From: a virus | DNA: 35,135 bases | Direction: 5' to 3' (one strand) | Virus record (IMG/VR): IMGVR_UViG_3300031957_000570 | Coordinates: 1 to 35,135 of that record | Shown here: positions 6,694-33,100 of the stretch, piece by piece | How the letters are laid out: each line of letters opens with the position of its first letter | Position numbering within the stretch: position 1 is the stretch's first letter | The notes under the pieces: model-generated | The model's input: the letters and a program-made list of their open reading frames with translations, nothing else | Databases searched by the model: none | Told to the model about the DNA's origin: nothing | Translations under genes and position numbers: made by a program

Positions 6694-7998
6694 GTGGTCA
6701 TTATGTGGGGAAGTATGTTGATAGGTGATGTCTACGATTCGCCCCTCGATGTAACTGACGACTTTTCAAAAATGGTTATTCAAAATATATCACAGCACCC
6801 TCATTTTCAAAACCACACTATACCTTTAGAATCATCTACAATATTCAAAAACACTCATGTAACTAAAAAATCATTTCCTGAAAATGGAGATGGTTGGTTT
6901 GAGTCCCATTACGGCAAGGATGCTAATTCTATTATCCGTATGTGTAGAAAAATGCGCCGTCATGACAAGTCTAATAAAAATGATTATGACAGCATAATAA
7001 CTGATATTCGTACTCTCAAGGCTATGGAAGTTGATACCACAATCAAAGGATTGTCTTGGTCAGAAGGATTGGATGATGTTATCCGTAATATAGGGTTAGA
7101 TGATAAAACTCTCAAGGCTCTTAGAAAGTTTGGAGAGGCAAGAAGTACAAGTTTGCAAAAGGCTTGTCAACAATATCTAAAAGCAGTTACAGTCTTACAA
7201 CACATTAATGATAAATCTGAATGGAATACCGCAGACCAAGATAATTGGGTATCTGCTTTAGGGTTAAAGAAAGATGCTCAAAAAATGTGGAGAAATACTT
7301 TACACCAAATTGACTTATTATCTAAGCATGATATTTCAGCATTAAACTTTACATCTAATATTTTAGAAAAAGAAGGGCCACTAAATAGTCGAGAGATTTT
7401 GAGAAGAGGTATGGATGTGCTTGACAAATCTATGACCACAAGTAAGTTAGGAAGTCTAATCAAAATGTATGGTGAAGAAGTAGATGTTTACAGAGGTTCT
7501 TCAAGAGGTACATTTGTAAAAATGGGTAATGATGGGCTTATCATTAAGGACATTTGGGCATACACAGCAGGGTTTGTAGATGCTGATGGAAGCATCTTTA
7601 TCTCTAAGCGTGGTGACCCTCGTGTTACAATTGTAGCCAGTGGTGCAGAAGGTAAAATGCATTGTGAGGAATTACAAAAATTACTTGAATGTGGTCGTCT
7701 TGTATCTGACCAAAAGTTAGCAAAGAATACAGTTAAACCAGTACACCGACTTATTTTCTCTTCAAAGGATTCTATTCGTGCCTTGTTAAAAGGTATTCTT
7801 CCTCATCTAAAATTAAAATCTTTACAAGGTAAAGCAGTAATGAATTATATTGATGAAAAAGATTCAATGCGAAAGAATGAATTGTATCAACTTGTAACTT
7901 TTAATAATTGGAAAGAGCATAAAAACAAGGCCCAATCTCTCTTAAGTGAGTGGGGCTTGGATGCTGATACCATAGGCGGATATGCAGAGGGATTGTGA
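6694..7998 (+). CDS. helical protein with C-terminal LAGLIDADG endonuclease domain
   Basis: The chosen start is GTG at 6694, 6 bases after AGAGGTC; ATG 6703 is an alternative. Residues 1-285 are mostly helical and unrecognised. Residues about 286-420 carry one clear LAGLIDADG motif, AGFVDADGSIFIS (A292 to about S304; Asp296 and Asp298), followed by β-rich sequence and a second helical half, as in single-motif homing endonucleases that act as dimers. No second motif is present. The gene sits between TerL and portal, both uninterrupted, so this is a free-standing gene and not an intron or intein insertion. HNH nucleases in this neighbourhood assist terminase in many phages, so a packaging role is a possible alternative to homing. 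The stop overlaps the portal start. Confidence 0.85.
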   Translation: MVIMWGSMLIGDVYDSPLDVTDDFSKMVIQNISQHPHFQNHTIPLESSTIFKNTHVTKKSFPENGDGWFESHYGKDANSIIRMCRKMRRHDKSNKNDYDSIITDIRTLKAMEVDTTIKGLSWSEGLDDVIRNIGLDDKTLKALRKFGEARSTSLQKACQQYLKAVTVLQHINDKSEWNTADQDNWVSALGLKKDAQKMWRNTLHQIDLLSKHDISALNFTSNILEKEGPLNSREILRRGMDVLDKSMTTSKLGSLIKMYGEEVDVYRGSSRGTFVKMGNDGLIIKDIWAYTAGFVDADGSIFISKRGDPRVTIVASGAEGKMHCEELQKLLECGRLVSDQKLAKNTVKPVHRLIFSSKDSIRALLKGILPHLKLKSLQGKAVMNYIDEKDSMRKNELYQLVTFNNWKEHKNKAQSLLSEWGLDADTIGGYAEGL

Positions 7999-9755
7999 TG
8001 GCAGAAGAAAAGGGAAGAATTAGTAGATTTTTAAGTGCCGTTGGTAGTCCGTTTAAGCGTAAAGAGTCACCTACTCCTACTATGCCACTTTGGACAAGTG
8101 GTATTCAAGAACCTGTTATGGCGCAAGGTATTACTATACCTGCATTATATGCAGTAAGCAATGAATCTCTAATTTTACGCACTGTATTGGCTAAATTAAG
8201 ACAAGAAATGTTTAGAAGAGGGTATTATTGGGAAAAGAAGTTTGCTCGTAAATGTACTGTCTGTGAAGAAGAATATCAAAGCGAAGTTGAAGCATGTAAA
8301 GAGTGTGGAGGTGCAGTTAGAACACCTGATATTGACGAATTAACATATGCTAAGTGGTTACTAAAACAAGAAAACAGTATGGAACAGTCATTTTTACATG
8401 TATTAAATGAAATTGAAGCAGACCTAAATGTAGTAGATGATGCATTTCTTATTCTTGTAAAAGAATATTTTATTGACCCTAAAACAAAAGAAGTTGCGTT
8501 CTTCCGTGTAAAAGAAATTATGCGTGGTGACCCTATCTTTATGCGTATTGTTGCAGATAAGCGTGGAGTCCGTGGTGGTCGTTATAAGACCTGTTTAATC
8601 CATAGAGAGGAAATAAAAACCAATGCTGAAGATGAAACTTGTGATATTTGTGGTTCTGAATTACATGATGTACATTATGTAAATATGGCTGGTTCAGGTA
8701 AAACACAGTACTTTACTGAAGGAGAAGTATTACATGTAAGCAAATATACCCCATCTAAACTGTATGGTCGCTCTCCTGTTAATACCATGTGGAGACAAGC
8801 AATGACACTTACCGCTATGGATAATTACATCTATACAGCGTATCAAAAGCGAAGAATGCCAAAGGGTATTGTATCTGTAACTACAGATAATCTTGAATCT
8901 ATGAAATCGTTTTGGAAGGCCGTTGATGAAAAAATGGAGCGTGACCCGCACTATATTCCAAAGGTTGGTATTGAATCTGCCACAGGTCGTGGTGGTGTAA
9001 ATTGGGTCAAGTTTATGGACACTCTTGAAGAAATGCAATACATCGCTGTTCGTGATGAAATAAGAAATCGTATGGCGGCTTTCTTTGGTGTTTCATCAGT
9101 CTTTATGATAGATAGCGGAAAATCCGGTGGTTTGAATAATGAAGGTATGCAGATACTTGTTACAAATCGTGCAGTAGAGTTTGGTCAAAAAGTTTACACC
9201 GAAGTATTATTCCCACGCCTTCTAAAGCAAATGGATATTAGTGATTGGAAATTAACTCTATATCCAAATGAAGAAGAAGATGAAATTACAAGACTACGCC
9301 GTGATGAGCAAGAGTTGAATGTTGCACAGCGTATGGCTCAACTTGGATTTGCACCTGAATTGATGGAGGACACCGCTAACCGTGATATTCGCTTTACTTA
9401 CAAGCGACCTGAACCTCAACCACAACAACAAGCACCACCTCCGGGTGGCGCACCACCTCCGGGTATGCCTCCGGGTATGCCTCCGGGTGGAGGAATGCCA
9501 ATGGGCGGAATGCCACCTATGATGGGTGCGGGGCCGCAAATGCCACCGCAAATGGCACAACAAATTATGCCACCACCACAACCGGGAGGTCAAGGTATGG
9601 GGCTTCGTAATCGTGGCCCTGCGGCACCACAAAGGCGTACTACATTAGGAAGTGGTTCACCAATTTCTAATGTCCAACAAAGAGGCCCTCCACCTACACT
9701 TCAACAAAGAAATAGTACAGCAATAAGAGATGCGAGAAACCTAAGAGGTGCATAA
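7998..9755 (+). CDS. portal protein with zinc-ribbon insertions
   Basis: This is the dodecameric DNA gate at the capsid vertex. I start it at ATG 7998 (TGATG overlap, AGAGGG 7 bases upstream) and not at the GTG three bases earlier. Family signs are the position after terminase and the central block with MTLTAMDNYIYTAYQKRRMP, then RNRMAAFFGVSSVFMIDSG and VEFGQKVYTEVLFPRLLK, typical of the portal stem and wing. Two putative metal sites interrupt the N-terminal half: C86-C89/C100-C103 and C199-H202/C215-C218. The last about 120 residues are Pro/Gly/Met/Gln-rich and probably disordered. At 585 aa it is of usual portal length or slightly long. Confidence 0.92.
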   Translation: MAEEKGRISRFLSAVGSPFKRKESPTPTMPLWTSGIQEPVMAQGITIPALYAVSNESLILRTVLAKLRQEMFRRGYYWEKKFARKCTVCEEEYQSEVEACKECGGAVRTPDIDELTYAKWLLKQENSMEQSFLHVLNEIEADLNVVDDAFLILVKEYFIDPKTKEVAFFRVKEIMRGDPIFMRIVADKRGVRGGRYKTCLIHREEIKTNAEDETCDICGSELHDVHYVNMAGSGKTQYFTEGEVLHVSKYTPSKLYGRSPVNTMWRQAMTLTAMDNYIYTAYQKRRMPKGIVSVTTDNLESMKSFWKAVDEKMERDPHYIPKVGIESATGRGGVNWVKFMDTLEEMQYIAVRDEIRNRMAAFFGVSSVFMIDSGKSGGLNNEGMQILVTNRAVEFGQKVYTEVLFPRLLKQMDISDWKLTLYPNEEEDEITRLRRDEQELNVAQRMAQLGFAPELMEDTANRDIRFTYKRPEPQPQQQAPPPGGAPPPGMPPGMPPGGGMPMGGMPPMMGAGPQMPPQMAQQIMPPPQPGGQGMGLRNRGPAAPQRRTTLGSGSPISNVQQRGPPPTLQQRNSTAIRDARNLRGA

Positions 9756-10975: not shown

Positions 10976-13900
10976 ATGTCAACACAACATTTCGATATTT
11001 GTGCAAACGAGTTATTGAAATCTCTTGAAGATGGAATAGACCTTCGTACTTCTGCGGCTGAATATATCATCGCATACGAAAACACAGATGTCCCAACTGA
11101 CATCGTGTACAAGTCGTTAAAACTAACGGCAGAAGAAATAATCCTGAAAGAATCTGAAAAAGAAAAAAGAGAAAAAGATGCGGCGAAGCAAGAAGAAATA
11201 AATGTTTATCGCCCCGGAGAAGGATATTTACTTTCAAACCACCACACTCACGGAGAGCCTACTCGACATGTTTGGATGGATGGCTTACAAAGTCCTGAAG
11301 AAGCCCACAATAGATTTGCTGTTTGGCCTTACTTTAATCCTAAAAGTCCAAAAAGCGCATACCAAAAACATCATTTTCCCTTTCACGAATTAAATCACCC
11401 ATTGAGAAGGCAACACGCTGAAAGCGAAATGCCTCACTTTGTTGAGATGCTACGCTCTCATGTATTCAACGGACACATAGAAGATGAAAGGGAGTTTGAG
11501 CAAAAACTTCTAAAACATCTACCTTCAAGTCATTCTCTATTAGCAGGTTATCAAAATCCTAATGATAAAACTAAACATACTAAATTATTAGGTAATGTAA
11601 ACACACCTAAGACACTTAATCGCCATCAAGAAGATTTTTACCATCGAGATTTTAACCGTTGGAAAAAAGAAAACTCACAAATGAATGAAGAGTTTATCGG
11701 CATGGGTTTGAATGCTTTAGAGGCAGAAGAAGCAATGAGACACGCTCACTTTAACGATAGAGCAAATGATTGGGTTTCTAATGAACATGATGTTAGTGGT
11801 AGTGATTATATGGATGATAAAGAATATCATCCAAAAAATCTTGGTCATCGTGCGTATATGTACGGTCTTGAATGGTTTTCACCTGAAGAGCGTACTGCTA
11901 TTCAAAAACACATAGAAGAAAAAGGAGTAGACAATCACGATGAAATTGAGTTACCTAATGGTGAAAGAATACCTTCAGCCCGTTTAGCATATAATAAACT
12001 AATGAGAATGACTCCTGAAATGAATTGGGCAATTAGAGATATGGGAATGCCCGGAAGAAACTCACATTACAGACAGGAATCTAACGATACTGATTATCAT
12101 AATCATGAAGATGACAGATTTTTCCAACAAGCATTAGGTGAAGTGTCTCATACTCCTATGGATGAATTAGGTGAAAGGTCATTTGCAGACCATATTCTTG
12201 AAAGTATAAATGATGAGCATGTAAATAGTCGTGAAAAGTTAAAACACAATAAACTAAGATTTCTACCTCGATTACGGATAGGAAAAAATCCTATGAAAGA
12301 AATGGGATGGGAAGATTTACGAAGTGCATCTAACGACCATTTTAGAACACTTAAAAGAGATGGAAAATTAGGAGCAATGAAACACAAGAAGGATGTTAAA
12401 AGAGTAAGAATGACTAAAGAGGATTTACTTTATTTGGCTGGATATGACCCTTCAAATCGCCAATTATTAGAAAACCATCCTATTCATGGAAAAATAGATG
12501 GGCCAATAATTGACGATAATATGGTAGATTATATTGCAAATCTTGCGAGGACTCGTGGTACTTTACAATCACGAATAAAGGATTTTCGTAATCATCGTGC
12601 CTTATTTACTGCGGTGCATGGCCCTCACCCTGAAGAGGAAAAGCCCGATTATTGGAAACTATCTGAAGATGGTAAACATACATATGGGCCGGGTAAGTTT
12701 TGGTCACAACCATTCCAAAGTACAGGTGGAGGTGGTATGACTCTTACTACTTATCTTGAAATGATTCATTCTATTGCCGCTAATGAAGATGGTGTATCAG
12801 ATTTATTTGATGTAAGTGACACAGGAACAGAATACCTTCATCCTAATGAAAATAACAAATCTATCGCATATCACTTTATGCCTGAAAAACAAAAAGCACA
12901 TGGTAGTTATGATGAGAAAAGTAAAAAATATGTTTATCATTCTGATGCCATATCCTTGCAAAACTTACTTTCTCCAATGAATATAAGTGTACCACATAAA
13001 ACAGATGGTGGTAATTTACGAGAGGGTTTAACTGATAAAAATAATTTTGCTGAACACAAATCTTCACTTTCACCACAGTATGAACATGAAATTAGATTTA
13101 CCAGTAAAGCCGATAGAAAAAAATATGGTAGTCATTTAGCACCTAATACTTTTATTACTCATATGCCAAATAAGGTATTACGACCTGAATCATCTTTTGG
13201 TGCCAATCCTTCAGATACTCATATTCATCATGGTGCAAGAAATAGTTGGTTCTTAAATGAATTAACTGGTAGAATAAATCATCCTAATCAACCAGCACCT
13301 AAGTCAATTGTAAAGTTTAAAGATTACATGAGAGGCGATAGTGGTGTAGGTGGGGAAACCTCTCGTAAACAGTTACAAGAATTACTCGGTTGGGGTGTAA
13401 CTCAACCTAATTTTTCTAATATGAAAAATCTGTTTATTGATAACCCAAAAAACAGAATGCCCTTAAAAATTGTTAATACAATAGCAAAGATTTTACAAAC
13501 TACTAACCCTAAAGCAATTCTACATTACTTAGAAGGCGATGACCACCACGAATTAAAATCAGCGTTAGGAATGTCTCAAACCGCCGAATTAAATAAAGAT
13601 GAAATTAAAAACACATTTGATGATACAATCACTTCTCTTAATTATGAAAACGAGCAAGCAAAGACTACTCAAAAAAATAAAACGAGAGCCACAAATGGTG
13701 TCCATGATGCGATAAACAGAATGGTACGAGTTGGCGGTATGTTACCATCTCTTGAAAAAGAATCTAAATTAACAGAATACTTAGATAATCTAAATAACGA
13801 GTTTATGGGGCTTACTAACCCGGAAGAAAAAGAGGCTATTGCAAACCGAATGTCCGAAGTAGAGCAAGAGTTATCTGCTGTTCAAAGAAAGAGTATGCAA

Positions 13901-16750
13901 AGTGTTTTGGGTAAAAAGCAAAATAATTATTGGACTATAGAAGCAAACACTAAACACGATTTGGCTAAGTCTCATAGAAACTTGGTAGCAGAAGTGGCAA
14001 GAGATAAAATCATTCCAGCCATGATGGAGGCAAGACCTGATGCTTTTGACGAATCTAATCCTCAACAGTATATTGATAATACTATGAGAGCATTCCGTGA
14101 TGCTCAAAGATATATTATGACTGTACCACATAGTGTACATGGTTTAACTGCTACAGGATATGGTTTGTCCAGCGAATTAAAACCTAATCCTAAAAATGAC
14201 CCATTCCATGCAAATATGGCAAAGCATCTAAACAAACATGGTTCTATGGTAGATGGAAACATGAGTGTAAATGAAGTGTTAAACATGTTAGGAATAGAAA
14301 AAACTGCTAACGCCAAGGTTCATGCTCGTAATTTAATTGAAGAAAGTAACAAATTAAACAGTCCTTTGGCTGTATCTACAATTAAAGATATTATCACACA
14401 TGGTAATATCAAAAATATTCGTGGTGTAAATATAGAAAGTTTACACCATGATGAAGAATTAGCAAATAAAAATGAAGATGAATTATCCGATGAAGAATTA
14501 TTTTACCATAAGTTACATAATAAAGGGTATCACAATGCTTTGTTTGAAAGTCAAAAAGCATTCAAAGAAAGTGATTGGAAGGGGCATTTTGCACACGCTA
14601 TACCACGCAGAATGATGGGAATGTTAAATCCTCAACAGTTTGATTTTAGTATGCAAGCCGCAGGTATTGGAATGCTTACATCCGATGTACACGGAATGCA
14701 AAACTTATCTGCTAAAGGTAAAGAAAAGACATCAAAACAAACAAGAAACTATCTTGATAGCATAGTACATTTTAATCCAAGTGTTGAAGAAGATGAGTAC
14801 GGGGTGTTTTCTCCACCAAATGAAGTAGTAGAATCAGCCGGTCTTAGAGATGGGCCTGTCGGCGCACCAAATCCTAACAATCATTCTATCATGGACACTT
14901 TTGATAGTGGTGCTTGGCATGGTGGACATGAGTGTTATCCAAATGTAGGTTGTGAGTTTGATTCACATGGTAATATCGTGGCTGGTACTAAACCCGGCCC
15001 CGGACTATTTTATGGTGTACCTGAAGAATTACTTGATGTAGTACACGGTAAAGGTAATTGGAATCAGGTTTGGGAAAATGCACCACCTCCACAATATACA
15101 CTTCCACCATTTTATTCTATGGATTATAATACATTTGAAGCGGCAAGCGATACTCCAACTACTATCAACATGAGTGAGATGACAGAAATTATTACTTCAT
15201 TACTTGACCCTGATGTACTTCTAACAAAGAGTGATGAAGCCACATGGTCACCACCAGTTAGACCAATGCATCGTATATTCGATATGAAAGACCTTGAACA
15301 CCTGAAAGGGTTTAGTGGTTCGTGGGTTGTAAGTAAGTGGTATGATGGTCAAAGAATTATTATTGTCCGTAACGATGATGAAGTGACCGCTTACAATGAA
15401 AACGGCAAGAAAAAAGGGCTTCGTAAAACCACTAAAGAAGCATTAGAAAAAGTCAATGAAAAGAATTACACTATAGACGCAATTCTTGGGGAAGAAGATT
15501 TGAATATTATTGATATTTTAAATTACGATGATAATAATATTTCAGATATGCAGTTGTATGAAAGACTGAAAATATTACGCTCGCAGTTTGATAGTCATGA
15601 AAATGTCATAGTACCCGGCCCACACGATACAAGAATGACAGATGATGAAGGACTTGAAGAATCCGTAAAGAATCTAAAAGAAGAACATGATAATATACTA
15701 TTAAGGGACAACAAATCCACTTACATGAAAGGAGAAAGGAGACATCCTAAATGGGTATTGTATCGTAGTAGTAAAGACTACAACTTTATTGTGCTTGATA
15801 GGAGGGGTAAAGGGCCATATACCTATCAATTAGGGGCAGGGCCAATAAATCAAGGTGAAGATTTAGGTAATCGTGCAATTGAACATGATGATAATTATTA
15901 CATGGATGTAGGTACAGCACACAACCAACAAAGAGTATTCAAGATTGGGGATATTGTACGAGCATCTATTACTGGTGTTACTAAAAAGAACCGTAAAGAG
16001 CGGGCAGTTTACAATGTACAATTTAAAGAGATAGAAAGTGAAGGAGAAGGAGAGGGGGCCGCAAGTGTAGAATCTCTTGATTTACTAACTAAGTCATTTG
16101 CGCCTATTCTAATTCCACATGATTTAGAAGTAGATGATAACCATATTCAAATAATCATGAAAGATTTAGATATAGTAAACTACTCTTATGAAGAATTAAA
16201 TGGTGCGTGGGTAATACATTCACCTACAAGTGCAATAGGCTCTCTAAAGAAAACAGATTATCCTGTAGTGCTGGCTGAAAGCCTTCTACCGTTTTGGTCA
16301 TCTGTTGCACCCCTTATGATTTCAGGTAACATAAGAAAAGAAACTGAAATCATAGATATTCCTGATAAACCTTCAGAAGAACGCACAGAAAGAGAAAGTG
16401 CTGGAATAATTGAGGAAGATGATGAAAATATAATTCTAAAACCTGAAAATAAGAAGAAGGCTTTAGAGATAATTATTCGTACTTTAGATGCAATAACAAA
16501 AGAAAAAATGACTTGGACAGGGCCAAAAGGACTTGGAATTGATGTTGGAACGCCTCAAGAATCACCTCGTGGCCCCACCCAGTTAAGAGATGAATCAACA
16601 CTACCTGATTTCGATGGCGAAAAGAAAAACAACGATGAAAAGAAAGTGCCTGAAAAAGAGCGACTGAATCACATTAAAGTCCAAACCGATGAAGGAGAAA
16701 ATCTTTCTATAGACTATGACAATGACCAGCCAATTGTTTCTCAAGGTTAA
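10976..16750 (+). CDS. 1924-aa giant protein with degenerate DNA-ligase-like domain
   Basis: The start follows GGCGGTGA. Residues 1-70 are helical with ELLKS at 12-16. Residues about 70-1400 are unrecognised, rich in His, Asn, Asp and Lys, and contain no detectable transmembrane segment or tandem repeats. Residues about 1435-1690 show the order of an ATP-dependent DNA ligase: a motif I-like KWYDGQR (1454-1460), motif III-like YTIDAIL (1498-1504), IIIa-like IDIL (1512-1515), IV-like DNILLRD (1572-1578), V-like PKWVLYR (1591-1597), then an OB-fold-like FKIGDIVRASITGV. The expected catalytic Lys position holds Trp1455, and other key residues differ. Identical LLTKS pentapeptides flank the domain (1415-1419 and 1703-1707). 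The C-terminus is acidic and disordered. A large protein at this place between portal and protease may be packaged in the head; this is inference. Confidence 0.85.
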   Translation: MSTQHFDICANELLKSLEDGIDLRTSAAEYIIAYENTDVPTDIVYKSLKLTAEEIILKESEKEKREKDAAKQEEINVYRPGEGYLLSNHHTHGEPTRHVWMDGLQSPEEAHNRFAVWPYFNPKSPKSAYQKHHFPFHELNHPLRRQHAESEMPHFVEMLRSHVFNGHIEDEREFEQKLLKHLPSSHSLLAGYQNPNDKTKHTKLLGNVNTPKTLNRHQEDFYHRDFNRWKKENSQMNEEFIGMGLNALEAEEAMRHAHFNDRANDWVSNEHDVSGSDYMDDKEYHPKNLGHRAYMYGLEWFSPEERTAIQKHIEEKGVDNHDEIELPNGERIPSARLAYNKLMRMTPEMNWAIRDMGMPGRNSHYRQESNDTDYHNHEDDRFFQQALGEVSHTPMDELGERSFADHILESINDEHVNSREKLKHNKLRFLPRLRIGKNPMKEMGWEDLRSASNDHFRTLKRDGKLGAMKHKKDVKRVRMTKEDLLYLAGYDPSNRQLLENHPIHGKIDGPIIDDNMVDYIANLARTRGTLQSRIKDFRNHRALFTAVHGPHPEEEKPDYWKLSEDGKHTYGPGKFWSQPFQSTGGGGMTLTTYLEMIHSIAANEDGVSDLFDVSDTGTEYLHPNENNKSIAYHFMPEKQKAHGSYDEKSKKYVYHSDAISLQNLLSPMNISVPHKTDGGNLREGLTDKNNFAEHKSSLSPQYEHEIRFTSKADRKKYGSHLAPNTFITHMPNKVLRPESSFGANPSDTHIHHGARNSWFLNELTGRINHPNQPAPKSIVKFKDYMRGDSGVGGETSRKQLQELLGWGVTQPNFSNMKNLFIDNPKNRMPLKIVNTIAKILQTTNPKAILHYLEGDDHHELKSALGMSQTAELNKDEIKNTFDDTITSLNYENEQAKTTQKNKTRATNGVHDAINRMVRVGGMLPSLEKESKLTEYLDNLNNEFMGLTNPEEKEAIANRMSEVEQELSAVQRKSMQSVLGKKQNNYWTIEANTKHDLAKSHRNLVAEVARDKIIPAMMEARPDAFDESNPQQYIDNTMRAFRDAQRYIMTVPHSVHGLTATGYGLSSELKPNPKNDPFHANMAKHLNKHGSMVDGNMSVNEVLNMLGIEKTANAKVHARNLIEESNKLNSPLAVSTIKDIITHGNIKNIRGVNIESLHHDEELANKNEDELSDEELFYHKLHNKGYHNALFESQKAFKESDWKGHFAHAIPRRMMGMLNPQQFDFSMQAAGIGMLTSDVHGMQNLSAKGKEKTSKQTRNYLDSIVHFNPSVEEDEYGVFSPPNEVVESAGLRDGPVGAPNPNNHSIMDTFDSGAWHGGHECYPNVGCEFDSHGNIVAGTKPGPGLFYGVPEELLDVVHGKGNWNQVWENAPPPQYTLPPFYSMDYNTFEAASDTPTTINMSEMTEIITSLLDPDVLLTKSDEATWSPPVRPMHRIFDMKDLEHLKGFSGSWVVSKWYDGQRIIIVRNDDEVTAYNENGKKKGLRKTTKEALEKVNEKNYTIDAILGEEDLNIIDILNYDDNNISDMQLYERLKILRSQFDSHENVIVPGPHDTRMTDDEGLEESVKNLKEEHDNILLRDNKSTYMKGERRHPKWVLYRSSKDYNFIVLDRRGKGPYTYQLGAGPINQGEDLGNRAIEHDDNYYMDVGTAHNQQRVFKIGDIVRASITGVTKKNRKERAVYNVQFKEIESEGEGEGAASVESLDLLTKSFAPILIPHDLEVDDNHIQIIMKDLDIVNYSYEELNGAWVIHSPTSAIGSLKKTDYPVVLAESLLPFWSSVAPLMISGNIRKETEIIDIPDKPSEERTERESAGIIEEDDENIILKPENKKKALEIIIRTLDAITKEKMTWTGPKGLGIDVGTPQESPRGPTQLRDESTLPDFDGEKKNNDEKKVPEKERLNHIKVQTDEGENLSIDYDNDQPIVSQG
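15278..16045 (+). other. ligase-like nucleotidyltransferase plus OB-fold region
   Basis: Sub-domain of the giant protein, residues about 1435-1690. The motif order I, III, IIIa, IV, V and OB is that of ATP-dependent DNA ligases. Compared with KxDGxR, the sequence reads K-W-Y-D-G-Q-R, so the nucleophile position is Trp and the Lys is one residue too early. Motif III lacks the usual DGE (it has DAI), and motif V lacks the first Lys. The fold seems kept while catalysis is doubtful. Confidence 0.65.
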
Positions 16751-16765: not shown

Positions 16766-16789
16766 CCATTACAAGTACTTCTTGTGGCA

Positions 16790-18160
16790 ATGTTGGCAAT
16801 TCAGCGACCTACCGACGGTATCTCTCTTCTCAAGAGTGGTTCCGATTTAGTAGTTGCTGGATATGCTTCTGTAGAGTTAGTAGACAAGCAAGGTGACTTG
16901 ATTACACAAGGCGCACTAAACAGTGCTTTTGGTAACTTTATGAAGAGTGACAGATTCCGAAATGTACAATTAGCGCATTCCAATATACAAGTAGGAGAAG
17001 TAATTGACTCCTATGTAGACAACAATGGTAGAATGTGGAAGTCTGAAGTAGACGACACAGGAATGTTTGTTGTAGTTAAACTCCGTAACGATATAGAGAA
17101 GGCTCGTGAAGTAGCCGCCGAAATCCGCAAAGGTAACCTTCGTGGATTTTCCATTGGAGGTCAGGCATTCAAAAGAGTGCGAAGGTCTGATATGGAAAAA
17201 GGTGACTACCAAGAGATTTCAAAAATGGAGTTACATGAGATTACAATTTGTGAAAAAGGAATTAACCCTGAAGCACAATTTCGTATATTGAAGGAGGATA
17301 GAAACATGACAGAAACAGACATGGCAGATATAATGAACAGACTTGAAAAGAGGCTTGACGAAATGGAAAAAGGTGAAATGCCACCTGCTCTAAAAGAAGC
17401 AATTGCTGATAAAAAAGAATCTAAAGGCGATGATGAGCCTAAAGAAGAGAAAGAAGAAAAGAAGGATGAAGAGGGTGATGACAAGATGGCATACATGAAA
17501 GGTAACGAATACAGCGATGTAATTACTTCTGAATATCTAAGTTGGATGGAAGGTACTCTAAAGTCTGCTGGTGTAGATACACAAGCGGCAAGACTACACT
17601 TTGACCAAATGGAAAAAGCACAACTTGGTGGCTTTGACAATCCTGATGCAGTTGACGGTGCTGACTACTTTGGTGGTCAAGTCCGTGGCCGTGGACAGGA
17701 AAACGGTGGCCCATCTACTGGTGCAATTAACGCAATCACTTCCAGTGGCGGCAAGACTCCATCAGGGGCACTTGGCCCAGTTTCAATGGCTAAGGGTTAC
17801 CTAAACCACGGAAATGTTTCAGATTCGGACATCGAAGCGGCTTACGAAGTTTACAAGGCGGCTGCTACAGAGCAATCATTCCGCAGTGACCTTGAAGGAC
17901 ACTTTGCAAACAGATTCAACAGCGAATTACAAATCGCAAAAGCAAACCAAGAAAAGGCGGCATTTGATGCAAGAGAGCCACTTGGACAAATCATGAAGAC
18001 CCTTGAAACTCTTAATGAGCGAATAGACAACATTGGAAGCGGCGGAGTAGCAATACAGAAGTCTGCATCTAACATCGAGATTCCTTCCACACAGGACTTG
18101 GCAAACATGGGTTGGGATGAAGTCCACGCCCTTGCTTCAAGAACCATGAGGGGAGAATAA
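16790..18160 (+). CDS. prohead maturation protease fused to scaffold
   Basis: A serine protease of the HK97 prohead family, which cleaves head proteins during maturation. I prefer ATG 16790 because of the upstream TATA box; GTG 16784 is an alternative. Numbering below is from 16784. The protease core, residues about 20-165, opens LVVAGYASVELVDKQGDLI, has catalytic His65 in NVQLAHSN and Ser123 in LRGFSIGG, and ends with MELHEITICEKGINPEAQF. An acidic Lys/Glu segment (about 195-230) and a helical region follow as scaffold, ending in a coiled coil and MGWDEVHALASRTMRGE. SLLKS at 14-18 and RILKED at 168-172 bracket the protease core and may be self-cleavage sites. Codons in the C-terminal part end in C more often than in upstream genes. 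Confidence 0.92.
   Translation: MLAIQRPTDGISLLKSGSDLVVAGYASVELVDKQGDLITQGALNSAFGNFMKSDRFRNVQLAHSNIQVGEVIDSYVDNNGRMWKSEVDDTGMFVVVKLRNDIEKAREVAAEIRKGNLRGFSIGGQAFKRVRRSDMEKGDYQEISKMELHEITICEKGINPEAQFRILKEDRNMTETDMADIMNRLEKRLDEMEKGEMPPALKEAIADKKESKGDDEPKEEKEEKKDEEGDDKMAYMKGNEYSDVITSEYLSWMEGTLKSAGVDTQAARLHFDQMEKAQLGGFDNPDAVDGADYFGGQVRGRGQENGGPSTGAINAITSSGGKTPSGALGPVSMAKGYLNHGNVSDSDIEAAYEVYKAAATEQSFRSDLEGHFANRFNSELQIAKANQEKAAFDAREPLGQIMKTLETLNERIDNIGSGGVAIQKSASNIEIPSTQDLANMGWDEVHALASRTMRGE
17291..17299 (+). promoter_or_regulatory. internal Shine-Dalgarno for nested scaffold
   Basis: AAGGAGGAT lies inside the protease gene, 6 bases before the in-frame ATG at 17306. It is among the strongest ribosome sites in the window and sits exactly at the protease-scaffold boundary. 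It also encodes Lys-Glu-Asp, part of the proposed cleavage motif, so chance cannot be excluded. Confidence 0.6.
17306..18160 (+). CDS. nested in-frame scaffold protein (internal start)
   Basis: An in-frame internal ATG after a strong SD would yield 284 residues (METDMADIMNRLEKR-like start once the first residues are read) made only of the scaffold part: helix, acidic disordered stretch, globular or helical middle, coiled coil, and the C-terminal MGWDEVHALAS motif. Phage lambda uses the same plan, with Nu3 scaffold made from an internal start in the protease gene C. This gives an excess of scaffold over protease. Evidence is the position of SD and ATG at the domain boundary; expression is not shown. 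Confidence 0.55.
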   Translation: MTETDMADIMNRLEKRLDEMEKGEMPPALKEAIADKKESKGDDEPKEEKEEKKDEEGDDKMAYMKGNEYSDVITSEYLSWMEGTLKSAGVDTQAARLHFDQMEKAQLGGFDNPDAVDGADYFGGQVRGRGQENGGPSTGAINAITSSGGKTPSGALGPVSMAKGYLNHGNVSDSDIEAAYEVYKAAATEQSFRSDLEGHFANRFNSELQIAKANQEKAAFDAREPLGQIMKTLETLNERIDNIGSGGVAIQKSASNIEIPSTQDLANMGWDEVHALASRTMRGE

Positions 18161-18184: not shown

Positions 18185-19285
18185 ATGGCAAGAGATTATA
18201 TCAGGAACATTCACGACATGGAACGCTACTACTACGGTGCTGGCAACGCTATGGGTTATTCCTACTCCGGTAGCGAATTACTCAAGGCTGACGCACCTAT
18301 GATGAGTACCACAGCAGGTACTTATCAAGCAATTTACGGGCGCAAAGTATGGAGTCAGTTGAACCAAGAGTTTAACGCATTCTCCATTCTACCTAAGCGA
18401 CCTTGGGAACGCAGTGGTTGGAGAGTCATCACCGCACGCCCATCATTCACTGTTGGTGGCGGTGTTGCAGAAAACGCAACCCTACCGGACACAACCAAGC
18501 CTACCTTCCAGCACATTGCTGCAAAACCTAAGACAATCGTACACACATTCGATATGTCTGAAACTGCAATGTTCCTTGCTGACAAGGATGACGGACTTGG
18601 CGACATTCGTGCTATCCTAAAGGAAGAAATGGGTAAGCACCACGCTGAACATATTAACAAGATGCTAACTACAGATAAGGCTACTGTTGCTGGAAATGAC
18701 TTTGAGTCATTAGACCGTGTAACTACTGGTGCTGCTGGTGGTTCAGCAGAAGATATGTACTCTATTGACCGAAGTGCAAACTCATGGTCTTTGGCAGAAC
18801 ACAATGAGAACAGTGGTACTGACCGTGTTCTTTCACTTGACCACCTTGACGACCTGTTCCAAAAGTGTTGGACTCGTGGTGGTAATCCAAAGGTTATCCT
18901 AACTGGATATGACACTTTGATGAGACTACAGCAACTTCTACAATCTCAACAGAGATTCATGGAAGAGAAGAGAGTCACACCTACCTATAACGGTGTTAAG
19001 GGTGTACCGGGTATTGAGGCTGGATTTATCGTAGCAACATACAACGGTGTACCAATTATCCCTTCCAAGGATGTACAGACTGACACACTAAGCAGAATGT
19101 ACTTCCTTGACACAGATTATCTATACTTTAGTACAGCAATTCCAACACAGTACTTTGAGTCCGGTATTGAAACTGGCGACCCATTCGCTATCAACCGCCT
19201 TGGACAAGAAGGAATGTACCGCACTATGGGAGAGTTATGGACTACTTTCTTTGGAGGTCACGGTTCAGTCCGAGACTTGAAGTGA
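18185..19285 (+). CDS. major capsid protein, HK97 fold
   Basis: The shell protein. The start follows AAAGGAGAGATG. It lies directly after the protease-scaffold gene, its length (366 aa) is typical, and the sequence pattern fits HK97-fold capsid proteins: an N-arm, an extended loop region around KPKTIVHTFDMSETAMFLAD, spine helix LGDIRAILKEEMGKHHAEHIN, A-domain strands PKVILTGYDTLMRLQQLLQ, and the late IPTQYFESGIETGD segment. ELLKADAP (Lys34) in the N-terminal region is a candidate maturation cleavage point, which would remove about 34 residues. The gene prefers C-ending codons (AAC, GAC, TTC) far more than upstream genes do, as expected for the most highly expressed virion protein. Confidence 0.9.
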   Translation: MARDYIRNIHDMERYYYGAGNAMGYSYSGSELLKADAPMMSTTAGTYQAIYGRKVWSQLNQEFNAFSILPKRPWERSGWRVITARPSFTVGGGVAENATLPDTTKPTFQHIAAKPKTIVHTFDMSETAMFLADKDDGLGDIRAILKEEMGKHHAEHINKMLTTDKATVAGNDFESLDRVTTGAAGGSAEDMYSIDRSANSWSLAEHNENSGTDRVLSLDHLDDLFQKCWTRGGNPKVILTGYDTLMRLQQLLQSQQRFMEEKRVTPTYNGVKGVPGIEAGFIVATYNGVPIIPSKDVQTDTLSRMYFLDTDYLYFSTAIPTQYFESGIETGDPFAINRLGQEGMYRTMGELWTTFFGGHGSVRDLK

Positions 19286-26361: not shown

Positions 26362-26850
26362 ATGAGAAAATCTTTACAAAAATATCGTAAAATGGGTGCA
26401 TTAGGATATGCTCGATGGGTATGTCAAGCAAACGGTGTAGAGTTTAGCGAAGAAATGATGACTGACTTAGATAATCACGGTATTCATGCTATGGTATCTG
26501 ACCTTTTACACCCTGTAGAAGAGGTATTAGTTGAAGAAATTAACCCTCTTGTCCAAGAAGAAGTCGCTAACCCATTCCCTGAAGAGATTCAAAAGTACGA
26601 TTCACTTACTGTAGTAGAGTTGAAAGCAATATGTGTAGAGCGTGGACTACCAGTTTACGGCACAAAAGCAGATTTAATTTTACGATTAAAGCAAAATGAT
26701 ATTCCCGAAGAAGAATCTGATGGCCCTACTGAAGAAGTAGCCCCTGAAGACAATTCGGAAGCCCCTACCGACGAGGTAGCCGCATCCATTGGAGAGGAAA
26801 ATAATGAAGAACACAATAGTGACCAACAAGAGCCTGTTATTGAAGAATGA
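26362..26850 (+). CDS. SAP-domain protein, 162 aa
   Basis: ATG follows GAGGTGTAA. The N-terminus is basic and helical (MRKSLQKYRKMGALGYARW). Residues about 79-111 match the SAP motif: YDSLTVVELKAICVERGLPV followed by GTKADLILRLKQ, a helix-extension-helix known in DNA-binding proteins. The tail, from residue about 113, is very acidic and disordered. It lies between the tail tube and tail chaperone genes, an unusual place for a DNA-binding motif. It may instead use the fold for protein contacts. The gene overlaps the next one by 47 bases in another frame. Confidence 0.75.
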   Translation: MRKSLQKYRKMGALGYARWVCQANGVEFSEEMMTDLDNHGIHAMVSDLLHPVEEVLVEEINPLVQEEVANPFPEEIQKYDSLTVVELKAICVERGLPVYGTKADLILRLKQNDIPEEESDGPTEEVAPEDNSEAPTDEVAASIGEENNEEHNSDQQEPVIEE

Positions 26851-27175
26851 TGATACAATTAAACACACAATCAGTATAGACCCTGATGATGAAAGTTTAG
26901 TTGTTGAAGTTTGGGTGAGGGATATTTCCTTCCTCGACATACAAAACGCCGCACAAAAAATGATTCGTGTAGAAAAAGGCGATGTAACATTAGACTTAGC
27001 AGGTTATTGGGGCTACGCACTCTCCAATTGGATTACAAAAACTAACCCTAATTTATCCAACAAAGAATTACTTTCACTCAAAGGATATGTCGGTGAGCAA
27101 ATCTGTAAGGTATTACCTCAACCTACAGAAATGATGGAGGCTCTGCAAGGGGGGTTTACCAAGCAGACCGAGTGA
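26804..27175 (+). CDS. tail assembly chaperone, upstream frame
   Basis: I choose ATG 26804, 6 bases after GGAGAGG, over the TTG at 26789. The 123-aa product has a β-strand N-terminus (SIDPDDESLVVEVWVRDISF) followed by helices, the style of tail assembly chaperones. It is encoded between tail tube and tape measure genes, as chaperones usually are. A run of six G residues lies near its end and the next frame is open through it, so a share of ribosomes may shift -1 and make a longer G-T-type fusion of about 214 aa. Confidence 0.75.
   Translation: MKNTIVTNKSLLLKNDDTIKHTISIDPDDESLVVEVWVRDISFLDIQNAAQKMIRVEKGDVTLDLAGYWGYALSNWITKTNPNLSNKELLSLKGYVGEQICKVLPQPTEMMEALQGGFTKQTE
27149..27155 (+). promoter_or_regulatory. 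candidate -1 frameshift slippery site
   Basis: GGGGGGT lies in the 0 frame as GGG GGG T. A -1 slip moves the second Gly codon onto GGG again. From here the -1 frame has no stop and runs straight into the gene at 27172. Tail assembly chaperones of long-tailed phages commonly use -1 frameshifting at this point. The A-site re-pairing is imperfect, so efficiency is uncertain. Confidence 0.55.
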
Positions 27176-28750: not shown

Positions 28751-30105
28751 TGGGTACTCCAATTAATTTAGTGCGTAATGACGGTGGGCTTATTCCACTA
28801 ATGTGTACTACTTTAGTTATGAATGTAGATAGAAGAGTTGTACCTATACCCGTACCATTTGGAGGCGGCTCAAGATTGGGTTTTGACCTAAACTTACCCG
28901 GTGCTACAATAACATTAGAGGGTATAATAGCCGACGAAGATAAGTTTTCAAATGCAGGTGCTAAAAAAGCATCTGCAATAATAGATTTTGATGAGGTAGT
29001 ATCACTTAACTTGTCTAATTTTGGTGCATTTCCATTTTCTACTTCTGATAATCTTGAGAAAATAGTTGATACTGGTACAGTAAACACACCACTTAATTCT
29101 AACCATGCAATTAATATACCAAACGGTAGCATTTTTCTCACTAAAAACACTACTAATTTTACTGTAAGTGCCAGTTACAATAATGACCCTACTATTACAG
29201 TTGGTTCTACAGATTCACTTTCAGTTGGGTTATCAGTAGCAGGTACAGGTATTCCCGGTGGTGCTACTATTGCTTCGATTACTAATGCAACTACATTTGA
29301 ATTAAGCGCATCTACTACTGGTGGTGCTGTATCAGGTGGTACACTTACTTTCAGTGGTTTTTATGGGAAGCATAAGGGCAGTGGTTTAAATTGGGTAGGA
29401 GTGTACAATACTACTACTTCCACAGCACGAACAGCCGCAGAAATAGCGGCAGATTTTGCCGCTTTAGTAAATCAAGAAACTGCTACATTTGGCGTAACGG
29501 CCAATACAATTAATTCACCAAATACTGGTGGTAGTGCTAAGGCTGTAAGGCTTGAGCAAAACGCCGCAGGTAAGGCTGGAAATGTAAATCAACCTTCGTT
29601 TGCTATATGGGGTTCAAATGCTGTTAAACCATTTCATACTCAATTTGATGGCGGAAAAGAAAATACTTCAGCAAGCGGCTACAGTGCAGGTGACAGGGTA
29701 GCAGAATTATATGCGGTGCTAAACAACTCTAACAACGGTGGCTTAGGTGCTGTTTTAGGCTCTATACCTGCTATGGTATCTGAATCTTTTGGAGAAGATG
29801 ATAAAGGATGGAACCCCTTAGATAACAAATACGGTGATTATATTATAGCATTACAAATACCGTTCACATCAACAGTGAATAGTAATGCATCTTTATTTTA
29901 TATGCCTACAGGCCCAATGAAACAAAGACAAGATAAAACAGTAGACAACGCTCTGCCTGTAGGAACAGAAATGATAACAAGTTTCGGGGCATATGAATAC
30001 ACTGGTATCAAAGGCGCAGTTGCTAACGCTACATTTACTCAACTTGGTGGAGAACCACTATACTCCTTTACAATTAACTTTGTACCTATAGACTGGATTG
30101 TGTGA
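28750..30105 (+). CDS. distal tail / baseplate candidate, 451 aa
   Basis: TGATG overlap with the tape measure gene; GAGAGGTAG is upstream. It directly follows the tape measure, where distal tail proteins are encoded. The N-terminal part is β-rich (VRNDGGLIPLMCTTLVMNVD, GATITLEGIIADED), as in distal tail hubs. Residues about 158-203 hold a β-module with GTGIPGGATIASI and TTFELSAS, also found near the end of the fibre gene. The C-terminal part (EPLYSFTINFVPIDWIV) returns to the hub-like β pattern. Assignment is by order and pattern; the inserted module may be an exposed decoration. Confidence 0.65.
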   Translation: MGTPINLVRNDGGLIPLMCTTLVMNVDRRVVPIPVPFGGGSRLGFDLNLPGATITLEGIIADEDKFSNAGAKKASAIIDFDEVVSLNLSNFGAFPFSTSDNLEKIVDTGTVNTPLNSNHAINIPNGSIFLTKNTTNFTVSASYNNDPTITVGSTDSLSVGLSVAGTGIPGGATIASITNATTFELSASTTGGAVSGGTLTFSGFYGKHKGSGLNWVGVYNTTTSTARTAAEIAADFAALVNQETATFGVTANTINSPNTGGSAKAVRLEQNAAGKAGNVNQPSFAIWGSNAVKPFHTQFDGGKENTSASGYSAGDRVAELYAVLNNSNNGGLGAVLGSIPAMVSESFGEDDKGWNPLDNKYGDYIIALQIPFTSTVNSNASLFYMPTGPMKQRQDKTVDNALPVGTEMITSFGAYEYTGIKGAVANATFTQLGGEPLYSFTINFVPIDWIV

Positions 30106-30109
30106 TATT

Positions 30110-33100
30110 ATGGTAGCAATAGGTCGTAGTAGTCACGCATATTTCTTTGATGGGGTTTCTGATTCTATTATTATACCACAGGGTAGGTTTAGAAAAACAG
30201 GTACTACTAACCCCCAAGGAAATAAAGTTTCAATAAATACTCTTGATAGTAGTGATGATAGAACCAACATCAATAGAAAAAATGACTCGGAGTTTATTAT
30301 AGAAACTTGGGTTATACCTGACTGTGGTGGGATTATCGCATCTCGTGATGGGCAGTTTACTCTTGAGATAGGTACAGTAGATACTCCCGGCCCCGCCGTA
30401 TTTACTATTGCTACAGAATCTATGCAAGGACAATCACTCGTTAAATTAACTACAGCGTTTGATGTAACAACAAGATGGGATGGGATAGTGTACCCTCAAC
30501 AAGAACATGCAGGTATGCATTTTTCTTACAATAGATACGATTCTTCTGCATATAATGAGGCTACAAATCTTAACTTCAATAACAGACCTTTGTACCATGT
30601 AGTCGCTGGTTTATCAAAAGGTTCAGTATTCCTTGCAATAAACGGTGAAACAGTAGCATCTCAAACCGTATCTGAAGATGTTTATGTTGCACGCAGTACC
30701 AGCCATGTGTATATTGGTGGTCAAGGAGGACAATTCCGTGGGGCTATAGAAGCAATCCATATGACTAATGATTACGACGAAGAGATGGCACTACCACACA
30801 TTCCTGTTAAGGGTAATCATACAGCCGCATTGTATCGCTTTGAAGAACCTATTGACATCATTGAAGAGTCTTATTCGTTTAGTGCATTTACTGCCGCCTC
30901 TAACGGTACTACTACAACTCTCACCATACCAGCCGCAGATGCTCAAGCGTTGATTGCTCGATTAACTGGTAAGGCATACGATTCAACTTCCCCTACTACA
31001 GATTTTAGAGCAACCCCATACAGTATGGGTAACTACAAATTAACTGATTATTTCACAAGTCCTACTTCTCCAACTACTATCGCTACAGCACACACTCCAT
31101 ACAACCTTTTGATAAATCCCGGTGCTGTAAATCGTAACTCTCACAAACCAAATCAATCTCCGCCTGAAAGAGTAAGGTTACACAGTATAAATGGGTCATC
31201 AGGAGTAATTACTGTATCAAGCATTCATGTAGATTTTATTAATGGAACCAATGGACTACGAGGTGTACTTCACTCTCGTACTGCTGATGTTGACAATTAT
31301 TTCGTAGTTGTTGGTGCTGACCTTTTGATAGACAATGGTACTGGTAAACCATATCAGCCACCACACTACGGTACACAGATATTCGATAAAACAGGACAAA
31401 TGACTATTGATGAAAGTAACTTTGAGAATCATGGTTTTGTATATTCATCTCGTATGGCTACTACAACAAGCGACCCAAACAATCCGTTTGCTGTAAATTG
31501 GCCCGCCACCATAGATGAGTTATTCCAAATAGGTCACAGTGGAAGGCATGTATATTCTCATATAACTGGACATGACTACATGCGCCGCTTCCCTAAACCT
31601 ACTGACTTAATCTTAGACCAACAAATAGATGGCTCTGCTGACATAGTAGAAATGGTGTATGATAATTCTACCAAGTCAATTAAAGATATGTTTACTATGA
31701 ACAGTTTAGTTGATTTCTACAACCCCGCTATAAACGCCCCAATAGTACGAATTAAAAATACATCATCAGTTGCAACTATAGTCAATAACGGATTACCTGC
31801 CGCACAAAGAGAATTGATTGCTATAGGTGGTTCAGGGTTTGATTATGCGCCATTCGCACTAAAAGGGCCGGTGCCTGAATATGGAGATATAAACGATACC
31901 ACTCGATTATATCACTTAGTACCCGAAACTAAAAGTCGTGTAGCACTACTTCATCTTCCGGCATTAAAAGCATCTCATGATTATGCGCCGTTTGTAGAGA
32001 TTCATTATAATGCAATAGATTTGACTGGCGCAAGCATGGGTGTTTCAGGGCCGATGTTGATGGTTGAAAAAACAGTACCAGCAAGTAGCCATTTAATTTC
32101 AGGGTCTACAAGAATACTTGATGTAATTACAACTGACCTTGCTAATGCTACTCTATATTCACCCGGCGGAATTGTCACCATAGGGTCTGCAATAGATGGA
32201 TTCGGTGCTTCTTTGGAAGATTCTCATACACTTCTTGGAGACAATACAGGTGGTCAAGAAAATGATAGTGAATTAGATTACAGTACTACCCCTGTACTCT
32301 ATACCCCTGATAACGATGCTACTGCTATACCTGCTTCACCTCCAAAAGCAATAGCACGCTCTCATAATAGTGGAGTTCATGAATCTGTATATCACAAGTT
32401 ATGTATTGAGCCGAGAACATCTACTGCTCAAAACTCTAAAACAGATAGTGATAATATTGGAAACTTTACACTACAACCATTAACAGAAAAATCCGGTACA
32501 GGTGTATTTGATATTGGGCCAACTTCTTCTTCAACAAGCCATTTTGAAATATTTGATATTATAGACAATATTAGGATTTACGATGAAGTTGGTGTGTATT
32601 GTAAGTTATTTGTCCAGCCTTCAAATAAATTAAGGAGTAATCAATTATCTTCAATCAATACTTCAGAAGCAGATACTATTCCAAACATAGCAGGTATTCT
32701 AACGCTAATGAGTAGATGCCGCATCCGTGGTGTAAGAACCACCGAAGATACTGAAAGAAATGCAAACATTACTACTGTGTTAGGTAAGGGTATTGCTGAC
32801 AGTTTCGTTAATGAAAATGTAACCGCAATAGGTAGCGGTTCACCTGACTCTCACATACTCAAAGAAATTGAGCCTAACGCCCCTGTAGTTACAGTAAATC
32901 TTGGTGGGCCGGGGCAGGGGGCGGTGAACACCAAGCCTACATTTGACCCAAGCCCACTGATGAGGCTACCCGGCTCTACAAGGCGTAACTGTGTAGTACA
33001 GGCTGTATTCATAGATACAACTGATGCATTAACTCACAATACATTATCAGTAACACCGCTTAACAATGCTTCTCCTGATATGCAATCTTGGGGTACAATT

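Follow-up and report, generated by a model that had tools for sequence, protein, structure and literature searches.

The window, the whole stretch of 35,135 nucleotides analysed here, is a 35-kb fragment of a virus genome, and its source is a magrovirus, a tailed virus of Poseidoniales archaea. The features of Magrovirales, namely an HVTV-like major capsid protein (MCP), a portal, a terminase and an S78 protease, are all present, and the MCP aligns with other marine loci. Members of the order are further characterised by a replication module encoded on the opposite strand and by genomes of 90-110 kb. The portal protein (7995..9755; this and every feature below lie on the plus strand) matches PF04860 and phrog_18178, the S78-type prohead protease (16784..18160) matches PF04586, PF14550 and, at 29%, HVTV-1 gp119, and the MCP (18185..19285) matches PF17236, phrog_24667 and, at 37%, the HVTV-1 MCP. 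The portal and protease matches confirm the setting given in the original prediction for a giant protein of 1924 residues (10976..16750), which is encoded between these two genes and carries a pseudo-ligase module near its C-terminus. The order TerL-HNH-portal-small ORFs-giant-protease-MCP recurs in the magrovirus clades looked at, and full-length homologues of the giant ORF (1.8-2.6 kaa) occupy the same genomic position in all magrovirus clades sampled.

Toward the other end of the giant protein, an N-terminal region (residues 60-760; 11153..13255) has a confident structure prediction (pLDDT 83, pTM 0.82), for which a fold search against the PDB returned no significant match, and Pfam recognises no domain there. 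The N4 virion RNA polymerase was considered as its fold and dismissed as a chance match (Foldseek E 0.5-0.9, TM 0.07, no Z of 2 or more). Beyond the module, a conserved C-terminal peptide, KEKMTWTGPKGLGIDVGTPQESPRGPTQLRDESTLPD (residues 1842-1878; 16499..16609), is mostly predicted to be disordered.

Fold and active site of the ligase-like module

It had been proposed that the stretch at 15218-16096 follows the ligase motif order and adds an OB-fold, and this span agrees with the fold now placed at residues of about 1420-1690, which, as modelled, is the nucleotidyltransferase (NTase) plus OB fold of ATP-dependent ligases. PF01068 (ATP-dependent DNA ligase) matches above its curated cut-off when the whole window protein is searched (E 5e-6, 26.8 bits) and matches the isolated C-terminal part at E 2.3e-7 (31.2 bits), and the archaeal ligase 4eq5 is among the hits (E 5.3e-8) of a profile made from 24 divergent relatives. 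Structure prediction, the check named beforehand, gave a ligase fold: the AlphaFold (AF2) model of residues ~1422-1690 has a pLDDT mostly of 83-93 (~90), Foldseek ranks an archaeal DNA ligase first (E 2.8e-13), and VIA aligns 268 of its residues, covering both NTase and OB, with the Pyrococcus furiosus ligase 2cfm (Z 22.1, rmsd 3.5). The NTase-fold part, which resembles a ligase adenylation domain (residues ~1420-1600; 15233..15775), was delimited from PF01068, the AF2 model and fold searches; the OB-fold-like part (residues ~1601-1690; 15776..16045) was delimited from AF2 strands 200-288 of the model and from the VIA alignments to 2cfm and 3gde, which extend into it as far as model residue 308-309. 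PF04679, the profile with which motif VI was sought, did not match the OB part, and hhalign of the domain against two true viral ligases was weak and aligned the IIIa-V part alone.

Erosion of the active site was counted over 60 non-redundant relatives, less than 95% identical. Within the degenerate motif I, W1450-VVSKWYDGQ-R1460 (15323..15355), the window reads S-K1454-W1455-Y-D-G-Q-R, and the earlier view that Trp1455 takes the nucleophile position of KWYDGQR is upheld by its codon (TGG, 15338-15340) and by its ungapped alignment with the catalytic Lys of 4eq5. That position is W in 52 relatives, Y in 5, M in 3 and K in none; a regular KxDG, which by the terms of the original prediction would have spoken against it, occurs in 0/60 of the aligned homologues, and queries independent of motif I (A2, the C-terminal peptide pattern, MCP) recovered no giant-protein homologue with one. 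Because all relatives have the altered motif, a local sequencing error is ruled out. Motif III, DGE in ligases, is D1501-A-I, as first read, and has lost its Glu; together with motif IIIa (I1512-D1513, the aromatic mostly lost) it occupies 15467..15520, without the usual intervening loop. With motif III assigned from the predicted beta-hairpin (strands 1498-1504 and 1509-1517), in a stretch that HMM alignments shift slightly, the Glu position (residue 1503) is I in 51 relatives, V in 8 and M in 1. Of motif IV E-G, the Glu position is variable (E in 17/60) and the Gly position is never Gly (0/60). The first Lys of motif V K-x-K, reported as missing from the window, is missing throughout, with L/V/M/I in 60/60, and the second is R in 42 and K in 2; the window has L1595 and R1597 at these positions.

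Judged from sequence and model together, the module is almost certainly dead as a ligase. In the alignment, the positions of the ligase Lys (I), Glu (III), aromatic (IIIa) and Lys (V) are almost always taken by bulky hydrophobics (W/Y/M, I/V/M, mostly I/V and L/V/M/I, respectively); these probably fill the nucleotide pocket, in which case ATP would not be used.

Conservation and spread of the module

No other part of the giant protein is as well conserved as the ligase-like module, whose NG86 dN/dS is 0.03-0.09, compared with 0.08-0.37 for the first 1400 residues; these values are to be read with dS near saturation for the more distant pairs. The module is under strong purifying selection and, although almost certainly dead as a ligase, is constrained more tightly than the remainder of its protein. 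An invariant M1431-H-R-I1434 (15266..15277; 60/60) stands at the position of the ligase 'PML' strand, and the motif IV/V region is replaced by a new invariant block, ILLRDNKSTYMKGERRHPKWVLYR (residues 1574-1597; 15695..15766), in which L1576, D1578, M1584, G1586, E1587, R1589, H1590, P1591, K1592 and W1593 are identical in 60/60. Across relatives the signature of the module is MHRI...W...G...LLRD..STYM.GE.RHPKW.

Among 53 testable magrovirus-like loci, located via the MCP and thus independently of ligase motifs, 52 have the module. It is absent from the haloviral relatives found in the MCP-based survey, and tblastn found no relatives in INPHARED phages. A cellular origin or a provirus was also considered, and a pattern-based scan of genome contigs, limited in reach, gave no relative.

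Possible roles and the replication ligase

The reading we favour, and regard as reasonably probable, is that the module is a non-catalytic binding unit exapted from a ligase core, in a head-assembly or internal virion protein. The chemistry of a ligase core (NTase plus OB) would have been lost ahead of the divergence of the sampled magroviruses, and the dead core would have been retained, fused into the giant head-cluster protein, as a non-catalytic binding module. Its place between portal and prohead protease is fixed. The motif I Arg that is retained and the invariant polar residues H1432, R1433, D1578, E1587, R1589, H1590 and K1592 would form a new conserved surface with which the module would hold either DNA or a partner in the head, be it portal, scaffold or protease; the C-terminal peptide would act as a docking or targeting tail. 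Position among the head genes makes it likely that the giant protein is a virion or prohead component, a place among late genes not in itself being proof of incorporation into the virion. Whether the module contacts DNA rather than purely protein is, from its sequence and predicted structure, an even call. There are precedents for such a history: an inactivated Cas4 nuclease became the nucleocapsid protein of an archaeal virus (PMC4625639), and catalytically dead yeast ligase IV keeps a role bound to DNA ends (PMC3694833).

Several other readings can be envisioned. The giant may be an injected multidomain effector ('polyvalent protein'), the dead ligase being the part that serves its packaging or that binds a host target. 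It is encoded with virion components, between portal and prohead protease, where HVTV-1 has gp113 and gp115, of which gp115 is annotated as a zeta toxin. In portal-terminase phages such proteins are as a rule packaged, and they may include inactive nucleic-acid enzymes, as with PBECR in Mu gp30 (PMC5512222). Divergence is rapid in the N-terminal region of the giant protein, no homologue of which is recognised in 15/236 relatives, and a first BLAST clustering suggested swappable N-terminal cargo. However, jackhmmer finds N-terminal homology in the other 221/236, which argues against a freely swapped cassette, Pfam detects effector domains in none of eight diverse giants, and the giant protein has no significant sequence similarity to HVTV-1 gp113-gp116, so that we consider this reading unlikely, albeit worth keeping in mind.

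Quite unlikely, in our estimate, is a reader of nucleotides or nucleic-acid ends, in which the dead domain would keep its pocket and stack a ligand on W1450, W1455 or W1593. W1450 and W1593 are invariant (60/60), and snurportin grips its cap via Trp107 and Trp276 (PMC3278928). PF21974, the m3G-cap-binding domain of snurportin, comes second in frequency among the Pfam matches, being found in 15/24 divergent members (best E 4e-5) and 24/46 (best 3.4e-4), and the snurportin chain 1xk5 appears in a PDB profile search at E 0.039; in the structure searches (Foldseek, VIA) ligases fill the best 50 listed and snurportin is not among the matches listed. Yet the snurportin matches shown fall below the curated cut-off (16.8 bits for a window-type member, cut-off 27 bits) and do not reach the strength of the ligase matches. 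The OB domain likewise indicates ligases, and the snurportin-1 family is not known to have one. Moreover, Tyr or Met can stand in for W1455, nearly all members have hydrophobic residues at the pocket positions, and Trp1593 is also common in ligase motif V.

The original prediction had also raised an altered nucleotidyl transfer by way of Lys1454, the residue just ahead of the usual position. This is the part of it that found no support: Lys1454 is invariant within the window's subclade in the tree, but residue 1454 is Lys in only 39/60 members (elsewhere Ser, Ile, Ala, Asn, Val, Asp, His, Thr or Leu), and because it varies, and because no member has the Glu of motif III, the Gly of motif IV or the first Lys of motif V, such shifted chemistry is very improbable. 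Least credible of all is that the module serves the viral replisome as an active DNA ligase, which is implied by published annotations that count ATP-dependent DNA ligase among magrovirus genes (ICTV profiles and a survey; PMC12999244, PMC10768690, PMC10160649). No member has the catalytic Lys, the module sits in a giant protein of the head module, and one magrovirus (a 102-kb contig) additionally encodes a separate canonical ligase of 379 residues with RKFDGVR alongside the dead domain.

That contig bears on the published lists. A separate KxDG ligase is found on 1 of 11 contigs above 80 kb, and therefore what has been counted as the replisome's "ATP-dependent DNA ligase" in magroviruses is probably the dead domain in many cases, and the functional lists that place it there need correcting. 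PolB is found on 10 of the 11 related contigs (80-115 kb), and in 9/10 of these the sole ligase match found is the dead domain; hence these viruses may need the ligase of the host.

To return to the non-catalytic binding unit, its widest form is one that we offer tentatively and lean slightly against: that order-wide a ligase turned into an obligate non-catalytic DNA grip of the virion or prohead (e.g., on genome ends or nicks, in packaging or ejection), that the listed replisome ligase is mostly this protein, and that most magroviruses depend on a host ligase. The module is a rare example of an enzyme fold that an entire virus order has retained despite the loss of its chemistry. It also offers a candidate for an unusual component of the head in uncultured viruses whose hosts are among the most abundant groups of archaea in the sea.

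Comparison with known systems

With archaeal ATP-dependent DNA ligases (PF01068 core; 4eq5, 2cfm, 3rr5) the module shares the predicted NTase plus OB fold, the motif order, the motif V W, the motif I G and R and the motif IIIa D. It differs from them in that all members have lost the nucleophile Lys together with the Glu of motif III, the Gly of motif IV and the first Lys of motif V, in that no N-terminal ligase DNA-binding domain is recognised, and in that it sits inside a head-cluster protein of 1.8-2.6 kaa. Polyvalent and MuF-associated phage proteins (PMC5512222) are likewise very large, encoded among portal, protease and capsid genes, and able to contain a dead nucleic-acid enzyme domain, whereas no effector, MuF or ART domain was detected in the window protein.

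The m3G-cap-binding domain of snurportin-1 (PF21974, 1xk5) resembles mRNA guanylyltransferase yet is a binder, a nucleotidyltransferase-like fold put to such use elsewhere. Its profile similarity to the module is weak but repeated, running over motif I to IIIa in matches below cut-off, and its ligand, eukaryotic capped snRNA, sets it apart from a module of an archaeal virus. TP1 of TTV1, the inactivated Cas4 nuclease (PMC4625639), has another enzyme fold, belongs to another virus and is a known capsid protein, whereas the magrovirus protein is a putative virion component; the likeness is that TP1 is an archaeal-virus enzyme, without its catalytic residues, that was recruited as a DNA-binding virion protein.

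The ligase fold and its locus

The 1924-aa giant protein is encoded by ORF 10976-16750 (+) and lies, as the original prediction had it, between a portal gene upstream (PF04860, phrog_18178) and a gene for a prohead protease downstream (PF04586/PF14550). Beyond the latter comes an SU10/HVTV-like major capsid gene, whose product is 37% identical to the capsid protein of HVTV-1 (Druskaviridae). Hundreds of IMG/VR contigs carry the family, for which the nearest published description is that of the magroviruses, a group of tailed viruses of Poseidoniales archaea (PMC12999244, PMC10768690, PMC10160649). The window, an IMG/VR virus record of 35,135 bases, is assigned to the magroviruses by its capsid, portal and protease matches and the published ligase-beside-protease layout rather than by an identical reference genome. 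Elsewhere in the window, an HNH endonuclease-like ORF (6694-7998) sits between terminase and portal, a position kept in several magrovirus clades; directly after the tail tube gene, a SAP-domain ORF (26362-26850) overlaps 26789-27175 in a different frame, the pair (26362-27175) being a candidate frameshifted tail assembly chaperone by analogy with the annotation of HVTV-1 gp129/gp130; and an ORF of at least 1679 aa (30098-35134), which extends past the window end and has no Pfam match, possibly encodes a tape measure or adhesin.

The ligase-like module (15218-16096, residues ~1420-1690) was predicted to combine a ligase fold with an OB part, and this fold is real. PF01068 scores above its cut-off in the giant protein, and a profile of 24 divergent relatives matched archaeal DNA ligases in the PDB (E 5e-8). 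The AlphaFold model, built with 46 aligned relatives, has pLDDT mostly 83-93 over residues ~1422-1690; Foldseek ranks an archaeal DNA ligase first among its PDB matches (E 2.8e-13), and VIA-align superposes it on the P. furiosus ligase with Z 22.1 and 268 aligned residues across the NTase and OB parts. The viral protein A0A516LT18 in BFVD (827 aa; 25% identity to the module across 394 columns, E 1e-24) probably belongs to the family too, either as a shorter protein or as a fragment. Residues 60-760 (11153-13255) also yield a large, high-confidence prediction (pLDDT 83, pTM 0.82) without any significant PDB match, and may represent a new fold.

Active-site loss under constraint

Relatives were gathered by four routes, namely the domain itself, a query without motif I, the C-terminal peptide and the capsid protein, the last being independent of the giant protein. 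Residues were counted in the 60 of 302 domain sequences that are less than 95% identical. The nucleophile position is never Lys (W 52, Y 5, M 3), the motif III Glu is replaced by I/V/M, the motif IV Gly is present in 0/60, and motif V has L/V/M/I at its first position and mostly R at the other; the motif I Gly is invariant and the motif I Arg is retained in 59/60. Judged from this alignment, the erosion first noticed in one protein extends to the whole group, in which the active site is lost. Lys1454, proposed as a substitute nucleophile, occurs in only 39/60 sequences, all of which fall within a single part of the tree; the others have S, I, A, H, V, T, N, D or L there. A takeover of the chemistry by this residue therefore fails as a family property.

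The conservation pattern indicates that the module is under strong constraint. Across 35 representatives, conservation along the giant protein is highest at 1401-1720 (~0.8 vs ~0.5 for the N-terminal 1400 residues), and NG86 dN/dS in the pairs tested spans 0.03-0.09 for the module against 0.08-0.37 for the N-terminal 1400 residues, with distant pairs near saturation and one close pair giving equal values in the two regions (0.08-0.09). Newly invariant, in 60/60, are M1431-H-R-I, W1450, L1576, D1578, M1584, G1586, E1587, R1589, H1590, P1591, K1592 and W1593. A second conserved element close to the C-terminus reads KE..TWTGPKGLGID..TP.ESP.GPT; the peptide at 16499-16609 (residues 1842-1878; TGPKGLGID..TP.ESP.GPT......PD.D) is near-invariant in almost all magrovirus giant proteins, is predicted to be disordered, and resembles a tail used for docking or targeting.

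Distribution and the replication ligase

Among 59 magrovirus-like loci (L305-L363) obtained via the capsid protein, 52 carry the domain, encoded upstream of the capsid gene as part of a very long ORF; five are truncated near the capsid gene, L330 starts only within the giant ORF, at its C-terminal end, and L357 is the sole locus counted as lacking the domain. The domain was not found in the haloviral relatives L286-L302 or in loci L303/L304, nor was any relative found in the cellular genomes or INPHARED phages searched. The equivalent genomic slot of HVTV-1 is occupied by gp113-gp115 (L030:146-8480), which have no sequence link to the giant protein; gp113 contains a metalloprotease-like motif, HEMGH, and the C-terminus of gp115, a protein annotated as a zeta toxin, looks ADP-ribosyltransferase-like.

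Published profiles credit the magrovirus replisome with an ATP-dependent DNA ligase (PMC12999244, PMC10768690, PMC10160649). The module is not the replication ligase. Of 11 related, possibly incomplete contigs spanning 80-115 kb, 10 encode DNA polymerase B. In all but one of the 11, PF01068 corresponds to the dead domain alone; the exception, a 102-kb magrovirus contig (L365, G041:C1:12920-13522), has a genuine 379-aa KxDG ligase (RKFDGVR) beside the dead domain. RNA ligase was found in 0/11 of these contigs and NAD ligase in 0/7 of the subset tested. The replisome ligase annotation of magroviruses needs checking and is probably due for revision.

A possible role in the head

The pocket positions of Lys (I), Glu (III), the aromatic (IIIa) and Lys (V) hold bulky hydrophobics almost throughout the family, and the nucleotide pocket is therefore likely filled; a binding surface is suggested by the Arg of motif I, which is kept, and by the basic and acidic residues that are newly invariant. 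Given these features and the gene's place in the head cluster, the module is best read as gripping DNA or a head partner without catalysis, in a protein that would be built into the prohead or virion, possibly with the C-terminal peptide as a docking tail. The main rival for the domain, that it reads nucleotides or ends in the manner of snurportin-1 (PMC3278928), draws on repeated though weak profile matches. For the whole giant protein, a packaged multidomain effector (PMC5512222) is a rival; against it, a Pfam search of eight diverse giant proteins found no effector domain, and the N-terminal region is mostly homologous among relatives, not swapped.

The re-use of dead enzymes in virions is already known, as are binders built on dead nucleotidyltransferase folds; the open-access literature searched yielded no order-wide, ligase-derived case within a giant head-cluster protein. 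For a non-catalytic grip, one precedent is the nucleocapsid protein of TTV1, which derives from Cas4 (PMC4625639), and yeast ligase IV provides another, having a catalysis-independent role at DNA ends (PMC3694833).
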